DNA from: Sediminitomix flava
GTDB lineage: Bacteria > Bacteroidota > Bacteroidia > Cytophagales > Flammeovirgaceae
Direction: 5' to 3'
Length of the DNA: 64,000 nucleotides
Assembly (NCBI RefSeq): GCF_003149185.1
Contig: NZ_QGDO01000007.1
Location: forward strand, 1-64,000
This document shows, piece by piece, positions 34,166 to 37,037 of this stretch. The position numbers and the translations under genes are program-made. Under the pieces are notes generated by a model. The model made no database searches. It was not told the DNA's origin and was given only the letters and a program-made list of their open reading frames with translations. Numbering within the stretch: the stretch's first letter is position 1; the number at the start of each line of letters is the position of its first letter.

Positions 34166-34699
34166 ATGGCAGAAATCCGTTATAGGGTAAACGAACAAAT
34201 CCGCGCTAGAGAGGTGAGGGTTGTAGGAGAAAATGATAATATAGAAAATGGTGTCTATTCTAGAGATGAGGCTCTTCGTCTTGCCAACGAGGAAGGATTA
34301 GACCTAGTTGAGATTTCTCCAAATGCTAAACCACCAGTTTGTAAGGTTACTGATTACACTAAATTTAAGTACGACCTTAAGAAGCGCCAAAAAGAATTAA
34401 AAGCTAAAGCTGCTAAAACTGTAGTTAAAGAGATTCGTTTCGGACCTAACACCGATGACCACGATTTGAACTTTAAGCAAAACCATGCGATCAAGTTCTT
34501 AAAAGAAGGTTTTAAAGTAAAGGCATACGTACAATTCTACGGACGTTCAATTATCTATAAAGATAGAGGACGTGAGTTGTTAGAGCGTTTTGCTCAAAAC
34601 TTGGAAGAATACGGAAAAGTTGAACAATCTATCCGTCAGGAAGGTCGCCGAATGATCTTGTTTATTGCTCCAAATAAAGCACCAGGAGCGAAAAAATAA
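34166..34699 (+). CDS. infC: Translation initiation factor IF-3
   Basis: 177 residues from the ATG. The N-domain begins [17 protein letters not shown] and contains [29 protein letters not shown]. The linker is Lys-rich ([23 protein letters not shown]), and the C-domain ends [14 protein letters not shown]-3 binds the 30S subunit and proofreads start-codon selection. The frame is open upstream to a TTG at 34115, but that codon lies in a promoter-like box. Many bacteria start infC at AUU for autoregulation; this one appears to use AUG. It is the first gene of infC-rpmI-rplT. Confidence 0.96.
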
Positions 34700-34701
34700 A
34701 T

Positions 34702-34732
34702 TTGATATTCGAAAAATTATTATTTATATTTG
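34702..34732 (+). promoter_or_regulatory. Promoter inside infC-rpmI spacer
   Basis: TTG at 34702-34704, a 20-bp spacer, then TATATTTG at 34725-34732. This is a good fit to the Bacteroidota -33/-7 consensus. It would start a transcript about 120 nt upstream of rpmI, just before the structured leader. Confidence 0.65.
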
Positions 34733-34859
34733 CACGCCCATTTGAGAAAATGGGTGTTGTTTGTTGAAAAAGGTTTTGCCGAGGCCCTTTTGGCTGCCGT
34801 AGGCTGGCTGGTTTTTCAACTATGTTTAATTATCGGTTTTCCGATTAAATTTTACAAAA
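34733..34859 (+). promoter_or_regulatory. Structured 5' leader of rpmI-rplT, candidate L20 autoregulatory element
   Basis: Three foldable parts are visible. A 9-bp stem at 34735-34743 / 34748-34756 is capped by a GAGA (GNRA) tetraloop. A long-range 9-bp stem, GTTGAAAAA (34763-34771) with TTTTTCAAC (34812-34820), encloses a GC-rich 40-nt core with GGCC/GGCT-type pairings. A small ATCGG-TTTT-CCGAT hairpin lies at 34832-34845, just before the rpmI ATG. The core is strikingly GC-rich for this genome. L20 is known to bind rpmI leader RNAs in other phyla to repress its own operon; that this one does so is inference. Confidence 0.6.
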
Positions 34860-35054
34860 ATGCCAAAAGTAAAAACTAAATCAGGCGCTAAAAAGCGCTT
34901 TAAGTTGACAGGTACAGGTAAAATCAAAAGAAAGCACGCTTTCAAAAGCCACATCTTGACTAAAAAAGAAACTAAGCAGAAGAGAAATCTTACTAAAACT
35001 GGCTTGGTAGATAAGTCTGACGTGAAAAACGTAAAAGCAATGTTGAATATCTAA
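34860..35054 (+). CDS. rpmI: 50S ribosomal protein L35
   Basis: 64 residues, highly basic, with the L35 start [20 protein letters not shown], then [16 protein letters not shown]. It has the standard length and the conserved infC-rpmI-rplT order. It lies behind a separate promoter and leader, which suggests ribosomal-protein control independent of infC. Confidence 0.98.
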
Positions 35055-35108: not shown

Positions 35109-35453
35109 ATGCCTAGATCGGTCAATCACGTAGCTTCAAGAGCTAGAAGAAAAAAGATCCTAAAACTTGCGAAGGGTTATTGGGGTAGAAGAAAGAACGT
35201 TTGGACAGTATCTAAAAATGCTGTTGAAAAAGGTCTTGTTTATGCTTACAGAGACAGAAAGCAAAAGAAAAGAGAATTCAGATCTCTTTGGATTGTAAGA
35301 ATCAATGCTGCTGCTCGTTTGCACGGAATGTCTTACTCTCAATTGATGGGTAAATTGAACAAGTCTGAAATTGAATTGAACAGAAAAGTTCTTGCTGACT
35401 TGGCGATGAACCACCCTGAAGCATTCAAAGCTGTTGTTGAAAAAGTAAAATAA
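35109..35453 (+). CDS. rplT: 50S ribosomal protein L20
   Basis: 114 residues, with [20 protein letters not shown] in the long N-terminal extension and [16 protein letters not shown] in the globular part. It is an assembly protein of the large subunit and, in studied bacteria, a translational repressor of rpmI-rplT. It is 54 bp after rpmI and ends at a strong terminator. Confidence 0.98.
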
Positions 35454-35475: not shown

Positions 35476-35514
35476 AAAAGGCTGTTTTCTTAATGAAAAC
35501 AGCCTTTTTTATTA
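35476..35514. terminator. Terminator of infC-rpmI-rplT
   Basis: AAAAGGCTGTTTTC (35476-35489) pairs with GAAAACAGCCTTTT (35495-35508), followed by a T-run. It has A-rich DNA on the other side, so it can also stop the convergent GH3-like gene. Confidence 0.9.
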
Positions 35515-35528
35515 TCTCTTTGTTTAGT

Positions 35529-37037
35529 TTATATCATCTCAAGAATACTATCGAGGTATTCTCTACTGTTTGCAAGCCTTGGTACTTTGTGTTGCCCTCC
35601 AAGTTTGCCTCTTCCTGCCATCCATTTGTAAAAGAGTCCTTGTTCAGCACAATGGATTTTAGGTCTAATTAGCGCAATATCTTTATAACGTTTGGCTTCA
35701 TAATCAGAATTAATTTCTTGAAGTCTTTGGTCTAAGATTTTGCTGAATTTATCGAAGTCATTTGGAAGCTTCTCAAACTCAATAATCCATTCGTGTCCAC
35801 CTTTTTTACCTTGTTCCAAATAAATTGGTCCAGCAGTAAAATTCGTGATCTGAGCTTCGGTAGCTTTACAAGCCTTTGTGATTGCATCTTCGGCATTTTC
35901 AACAATCAGTTCTTCTCCAAATGCATTGATGAATTGCTTTGTTCTACCTGAAATTTTAATCCTGTGAGGAGCCAATGAGGTAAACCTTACTGTATCTCCA
36001 ATCTGATATCTCCAAAGTCCTGCATTGGTCGTAATTAGCATTGCGTAGTTTTTACCCAATTCAACCTCACCAACCCCCACTGCTTTAGGATGATCTTTTC
36101 CCCATTCGCTGCTTGGGATGAATTCATAATAAATCCCATGATCAAGCAGAAGGAGCATTTCATCTTCTACATTACGATCTTGTAAACCGAAATATCCTTC
36201 AGAGGCATTATAAACCTCTAAATAATTCATGCGAGGGTTATTAATCAGTTTTTTGAATGTATCTCGATATGGGCCGAAAGCTACAGCTCCATGCGCAAAT
36301 AATTCCAAGTCTGGCCATACTTCAGCAATGCTTGATTTTCCTGTAATCTCTAGTATTCTTTCAAGTAATACGAGTGTCCAAGTGGGAACCCCTGCCATAC
36401 TTACGACATATTCGTCAATAACTGAATGTGCCATTTTCTCAATTTTAGCTTCCCATTCTTCCATAAGCGCTACTTCTATGGAAGGAGTTCGCATATATTG
36501 CGCCCAAAAAGGAAGGTTTTTCATGAGAATGGCTGAAACATCTCCACAAACCAAATCTTGGTTCATGAAATTTTTCTGATATGAGCCTCCTATAGCCAAA
36601 CATTTACCTTTAAATAAATTTGTTTCGGGGTAAAGAGCAGAATAGAGAGAAAGCATATCTTTTCCAGCCTGATAATGGCAATCAAATAATGACTCTTCTG
36701 ATACGGGGATAAATTTACTTTTTGCGTTTGTGGTTCCTGATGATTTAGAAAAAAAGTTGATAGGTTCTGGCCAGAGAATGTTTTGTTCTCCTTTCATAAT
36801 TCGATCTATAAATGGGAATAGATCTTCATAGGTTGATACTGGGACGCGCTCGCGGAATATTTCTGGAGATGTGATAGAAGAATATCCATATTTCTTACCC
36901 CATTCCGTATAAACAGCCTTCTCAATTAAATAAGTGAATACCTCCTGTTGAATGTCAGCAGGAGATGACATCATGTATTCTAGGCGTTTCATTCGGGAAG
37001 AAGTAGCCCAACCAAAAATTCGATTCAATACCTTCAT
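35529..37037 (-). CDS. GH3-family acyl-adenylating enzyme
   Basis: 502 residues. It matches bacterial members of the GH3 auxin-responsive family: an N-terminal TYLIEKAVYTEWGKKYGY region, the phosphate-binding FFSKSSGTTNAKSKFIPVS, LEVYNASEGYFGLQD for the adenylate site, and LWRYQIGDTVRFTS with ISGRTKQFINAFGEEL toward the C-terminal domain. Plant GH3 enzymes join amino acids to acyl acids through an acyl-adenylate. The substrate of the widespread Bacteroidota version is not known. Monocistronic, cytoplasmic. Confidence 0.85.
   Translation of the reverse strand: MKVLNRIFGWATSSRMKRLEYMMSSPADIQQEVFTYLIEKAVYTEWGKKYGYSSITSPEIFRERVPVSTYEDLFPFIDRIMKGEQNILWPEPINFFSKSSGTTNAKSKFIPVSEESLFDCHYQAGKDMLSLYSALYPETNLFKGKCLAIGGSYQKNFMNQDLVCGDVSAILMKNLPFWAQYMRTPSIEVALMEEWEAKIEKMAHSVIDEYVVSMAGVPTWTLVLLERILEITGKSSIAEVWPDLELFAHGAVAFGPYRDTFKKLINNPRMNYLEVYNASEGYFGLQDRNVEDEMLLLLDHGIYYEFIPSSEWGKDHPKAVGVGEVELGKNYAMLITTNAGLWRYQIGDTVRFTSLAPHRIKISGRTKQFINAFGEELIVENAEDAITKACKATEAQITNFTAGPIYLEQGKKGGHEWIIEFEKLPNDFDKFSKILDQRLQEINSDYEAKRYKDIALIRPKIHCAEQGLFYKWMAGRGKLGGQHKVPRLANSREYLDSILEMI

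Follow-up and report, generated by a model that had tools for sequence, protein, structure and literature searches.

The spacer between infC and rpmI in Sediminitomix flava harbours a conserved cis-acting RNA element, an assignment that we regard as close to certain. Judged from sequence comparison, this RNA rather probably forms the 5' leader of the rpmI-rplT transcript and is a candidate translational operator for ribosomal protein L20. It was studied in a window of 64,000 nucleotides, i.e. the whole stretch of DNA that was analysed, from the 6.6 Mb genome (39 contigs) of this member of a family that includes Flammeovirga (genus g3).

In the window the genes infC, rpmI and rplT surround the leader in this order and a terminator follows after rplT. 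All features given below lie on the forward strand. infC stops at 34699, which leaves a spacer of 160 bases to rpmI (34860-35054; Pfam Ribosomal_L35p, E = 3.7e-28), the gene for L35 and presumably the first regulated gene. rplT, encoding L20 and thus the presumed regulator as well as a regulated gene (35109-35453; Pfam Ribosomal_L20, E = 3.6e-46), starts 54 bases downstream of rpmI on the same mRNA. The L20 of the window is 55% identical to that of E. coli and has kept R92 and K93, the C-terminal pair that was mutated in E. coli L20 (PMC6962249). The intrinsic terminator at 35476-35508 consists of a 14-bp stem and a subsequent T-run. This strong terminator sits between rplT and a converging gene at 35529-37037, and it is bidirectional, being terminator-like on both strands.

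The sequence-only reading had described a structured, GC-rich leader with its own promoter at 34733-34859. The promoter could indeed be read directly from the sequence: a TTG at 34702-34704 is followed by a 20-base spacer and TATATTTG at 34725-34732, such that the motif (34702-34732) starts just outside these positions. We take the TTG-N20-TATATTTG arrangement to be the Bacteroidota type of promoter. A TAnnTTTG box followed by GCA(C/T)GC was present in all 11 genomes that carry the element. Downstream of the promoter the leader is about 120 bases long. Folding of 34737-34862 provided -37.4 kcal/mol compared to -26.8 ± 3.7 kcal/mol for shuffled sequences (z = -2.87; 1 of 200 shuffles was as good). 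The GC-rich core was confirmed: it comprises the richest 40 bases of the 64 kb, with 65% G+C at a window average of 34%, and no other 40-base window comes as high.

The predicted fold begins with a 5' hairpin, HP1, at the presumed transcript start (approximately 34735-34756). In the window this hairpin carries a GAGA loop, so that the GNRA-capped stem that had been claimed is present; its cap is not conserved, as the 5' hairpin of relatives has other loops. Within Flammeovirga HP1 shows one compensatory pair (C-G to U-A). The run after HP1 reads ATTTTTT in the Flammeovirga leaders and TGTTTGTTG in the window (HP1 taken as 34734-34757). Due to this T-rich run HP1 could double as a terminator of infC, overlapping the start site of the rpmI promoter. 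The core element P1-P3 follows at 34763-34820, of which the genome holds a single copy. Its outer stem P1 pairs GTTGAAAAA (34763-34771) with TTTTTCAAC (34812-34820) over 9 bp, as the sequence-only reading had it, with a length that turned out to be lineage-specific (4 bp in Flammeovirga). P1 is extended by pairing of 34772-34775 with 34806-34809 and is succeeded by P2 (34778-34780 with 34802-34804), an asymmetric internal loop of GA (34781-34782) and GUA (34799-34801), and P3 (34783-34785 with 34796-34798). The small hairpin noticed earlier next to the start codon, ATCGGTTTTCCGAT (34832-34845; AUCGG-UUUU-CCGAU), was also recovered. Its Flammeovirga equivalent (P4) differs from that of the window and has one compensatory pair. 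The leader of the window further contains a short upstream ORF at 34822-34848 (ATG TTT AAT TAT CGG TTT TCC GAT TAA), and Flammeovirga has ATG TTT CAC CTT... at a comparable spot, which is lost in genome G014 and absent in genome G003. Since it is not conserved in these two genomes, the upstream ORF was dropped as a candidate attenuator.

The element was found in 11 of the 18 genomes of the family, namely in the genus of the window, in genus g4 (G003) and in nine Flammeovirga, with Flammeovirga aprica represented by locus L159. In close relatives the element is missing, a point against the operator reading. Every carrier has a single copy in the order infC-core-rpmI-rplT. The core sequence, CCGRGGC, a few bases and UUGGCUGCCGUAGG, is nearly invariant across carriers, with the variant UCGAGGC in G003. 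The flanks of the core are largely unalignable between the genera, and the L35 proteins of the other carrier genera are 82-89% identical to that of the window. Model R2, which was built without the window, returned the window core as the top match in the 64 kb; the E value of this match, 0.12, is modest. In a concatenated IF3-L35-L20 tree the carriers were adjacent, with weak support (31-32) at the key nodes. This placement is consistent with one origin of the element.

Covariation was evaluated on an alignment of eight cores that together represent three genera. Of its cells 97.7% pair, and 5 pairs with 12 cells were changed on both sides, where cells count sequences and not events and 9 of the 11 carriers belong to one genus. 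None of 500 shuffles equalled the double-changed cells or the covariation score, and the number of pairs was equalled in 3 of 500. Sliding the partners along the alignment abolished the signal. The covariation in the core falls on P1 and P2, with part of P2 being invariant, while the pairing of the innermost 3 bp, P3, is unsupported by variation because P3 is invariant. An alignment of the whole leader within Flammeovirga provided 20 double-changed cells over HP1, HP2, P1 and P4. Paired arms without covariation among relatives had been named beforehand as a reason to give up the leader; they do covary, both in P1/P2 and over the four Flammeovirga helices, and the idea survived. A chance structure or leftover sequence appears hardly credible on these grounds. 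The fold z-score taken alone is modest, as would be expected for it, but the structure is conserved across genera despite the L35 divergence given above, shuffles do not reach the covariation, and the whole-leader covariation in Flammeovirga contradicts this explanation as well.

Outside the family, model R1 revealed no credible further member across 391 genomes of the order, 395 of the class and 396 of the phylum (about 1,170 with slight overlap), where distant members could be missed because these wider searches had stricter filters. Weak R1 matches in genomes G094, G217 and G939 were rejected: none lies near rpmI, the match in G939 is internal to a long open reading frame, and at the loci in G094 and G217 infC, rpmI and rplT are all missing. 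A loose pattern scan of genome contigs returned at least 119 matches, mostly chance, and among the matches listed only that of Flammeovirga aprica adjoins rpmI. Two Prevotella matches (17.6-19.5 bits) were discarded as they are not adjacent to rpmI, rplT or infC. The strict pattern had no match in viral contigs. With carriers found in just three genera of one family, the element does not represent a general trait of Cytophagales or Bacteroidota. In other Cytophagales (loci L003, L004, L011, L025 and L028) many core-less spacers have a TTTG-type promoter together with unrelated hairpins, which may be different leaders.

The apical loop of the core offers a link to the rpmI start. Its strand CUUUUGGC (34787-34794) is a perfect 8-bp complement of GCCAAAAG (34862-34869), which comprises the G of the rpmI AUG, codons 2 and 3 and the first base of codon 4; we propose the two strands as 5' and 3' arms of a pseudoknot. 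The carriers share the loop sequence UUGGCU without variation, a constraint that is not required of a plain loop. For all 10 leaders tested the best complement of the loop within about 460 transcript bases was the rpmI start codon. The window has the longest complement with 8 bp, followed by G003 (g4) with 7 bp and Flammeovirga with 5 bp; in the latter an A-A mismatch breaks a longer pairing and the 5 bp alone correspond to p of approximately 0.04-0.05. In the window the pseudoknot could form alongside an intact P1-P3 and amounts to about -6.8 kcal/mol before loop penalties. An 8-base complement of the start region occurs anywhere in a shuffled leader with a probability of 0.04, and the fact that it falls into the apical loop lowers the likelihood of chance further. 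The motif UUUUGGC was absent from the (up to) 200 bases upstream of 39 element-less rpmI loci in the order. Codon 2 of rpmI is CCA in all carriers and in less than half of these 39 loci; non-carriers in the order have CCA, CCT, CCG or CCC. The pseudoknot itself has no room for covariation, as its 3' arm lies in coding sequence and the 5 bp shared by all carriers are constant. Overall the complementarity of the loop suggests a pseudoknot over the rpmI start codon, as in the L20 control of E. coli. In two Flammeovirga genomes, G012 (locus L053) and G002 (locus L059), the 5' strand of P1, UGGCAU, likewise matches AUGCCA at the start of rpmI as a complement; for G012 folding predicts this pairing at high probability.

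These data also bear on whether the leader could be a 5' UTR that stabilises the mRNA or enhances translation and involves no regulator. Hairpins that, like HP1, are located where a transcript begins are usual stabilisers, and promoters in the infC-rpmI spacer are widespread in the order. We nevertheless find this quite improbable, because such a UTR accounts neither for some 20 core bases, loops included, that hardly vary nor for the complementarity between loop and start codon.

The C-terminal domain of L20 binds the H40-H41 junction of 23S rRNA (PMC6962249). The leader core was compared with the 23S rRNA of relatives because the genome's own 23S rRNA gene is absent from the assembly: it was not found in the 39 contigs, probably since collapsed repeats were left out. 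In relatives the junction reads ACC-GAA-G / C-UAA-GGU (Rfam structure), and the leader core in most carriers ACC-GA-G / C-GUA-GGU. Core variants are GCC/GGC outer pairs in the window and ACC-GG-G in G002 and G012. Tested against structure-preserving shuffles, the similarity to H40/H41 had p values of 0.005-0.06 for the cores of relatives, with 0.005-0.05 in most comparisons of carriers, and of 0.07-0.19 for the window core, and in an unconstrained scan other rRNA places scored as high as H40/H41 against the leader core. Given these weak p values and the equal scores elsewhere, the rRNA resemblance supports L20 without establishing it. Together, the proposed start-codon pseudoknot and the likeness to the 23S site suggest L20 as the putative ligand.

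A real translational operator may also respond to another ligand, i.e. to L35, IF3, a small RNA or temperature. L20 is named just by proximity and the weak rRNA resemblance, L35 is the product of the first gene and infC lies directly upstream. Still, we consider a different ligand unlikely, given that the same operon is regulated by L20 in E. coli and B. subtilis (PMC10931766), that the core resembles the L20 site and that L20 has retained the two C-terminal residues.

With L20 as the ligand, control could operate as follows. L20 left over from 23S rRNA binding would attach to the leader core, where the H40/H41-like internal loop P2/GA-GUA/P3 is the probable site. Binding would stabilise the pseudoknot of the apical loop (34787-34794) with the start region (34862-34869), such that ribosomes could not initiate on rpmI. 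The output of rplT would then fall via its translational coupling to rpmI.

The L20 protein of E. coli attaches to a pseudoknot close to the start of rpmI; it represses this gene and, by way of coupling, rplT (PMC6962249, PMC10931766). The E. coli operator likewise occupies the interval from infC to rpmI, adjoining the rpmI start, and controls rpmI-rplT but not infC (PMC10931766). A pseudoknot close to the rpmI start, here a proposed one, and a proposed mimicry of H40/H41 may be further common features (PMC6962249). In contrast, no similarity of sequence or scaffold was seen, and the Flammeovirgaceae element is compact and has a promoter sequence of its own, placed after infC. In E. coli six bases lie between the end of the pseudoknot and the downstream rpmI start (PMC6962249), whereas the proposed arm in Flammeovirgaceae includes the start codon. 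E. coli also has a second L20 site, an irregular hairpin, of which no counterpart was identified here, short of a systematic search.

The Firmicutes L20 leader (RF00558) belongs to the same operon and has the same presumed ligand; the B. subtilis leader precedes infC and has at its end a terminator that forms upon L20 binding (PMC6097659, PMC10931766). Across the 64-kb window all Rfam 15 families stayed below their cut-offs. At relaxed thresholds RF00558, which detects leaders of known shape in Firmicutes genomes, had no match in the leader and hit only the rplT terminator (26.3 bits vs a cut-off of 58.7). The leader is not a member of RF00558. This agrees with the initial impression that its fold differs from the Bacillus and E. 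coli leaders: the Rfam L20 model leaves it undetected and its scaffold is unlike the Firmicutes one. Transcription attenuation by L20 in the B. subtilis manner, with binding forming a terminator before rpmI, could draw on two weak terminator-like hairpins in the leader (34734-34757 and 34832-34845) and on the ATTTTTT after HP1 in Flammeovirga. However, HP1 precedes the core and is placed where the transcript begins, only a poor T-run accompanies the hairpin downstream of the core in the window, P4 of Flammeovirga is followed by AAAAUG, and the Firmicutes L20 model finds nothing in the leader. A conserved terminator hairpin with a U-tract that would serve as expression platform was not found after the core in the window and in Flammeovirga. 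Attenuation is therefore less likely than a translational operator, and we regard it as improbable.

A well-described Bacteroidota L20 leader was not known to the sequence-only reading, and none is listed in the table of Eckert and Weinberg 2020 (PMC7247131); our literature search, incomplete in its coverage, found no report of one either. The Deltaproteobacteria L20 motif of the same study (PMC7247131), compared by description only, is similarly a computational L20 r-leader with its own scaffold and proposed rRNA mimicry, in a different lineage. The Bacteroidota r-leaders for L13, S4, S15 and S16 (PMC7247131) share the phylum and the lineage-restricted occurrence with the element but belong to other operons and proteins. 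As for an r-leader class, a structured 5' UTR RNA is conserved before the same operon (11 genomes, 3 genera) and its helices covary, with slid controls being far lower.

Tentatively, we thus put forward a candidate, previously undescribed L20 r-leader class confined to Flammeovirgaceae, for which the chances seem close to balanced and which would combine an H40/H41-like site and an anti-start-codon loop in one compact hairpin. Most likely, the element is a lineage-specific L20 translational operator, in which regulation of a known kind uses a new scaffold. L20 leaders evolved on several unrelated scaffolds, and another independent one would therefore show how readily L20 regulation arises. Translation initiation in Bacteroidota mostly proceeds without Shine-Dalgarno pairing, so that repressors in this phylum cannot simply hide a Shine-Dalgarno site. 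If the proposal is true, pairing of a loop with the start codon would be an alternative and testable way to block initiation.
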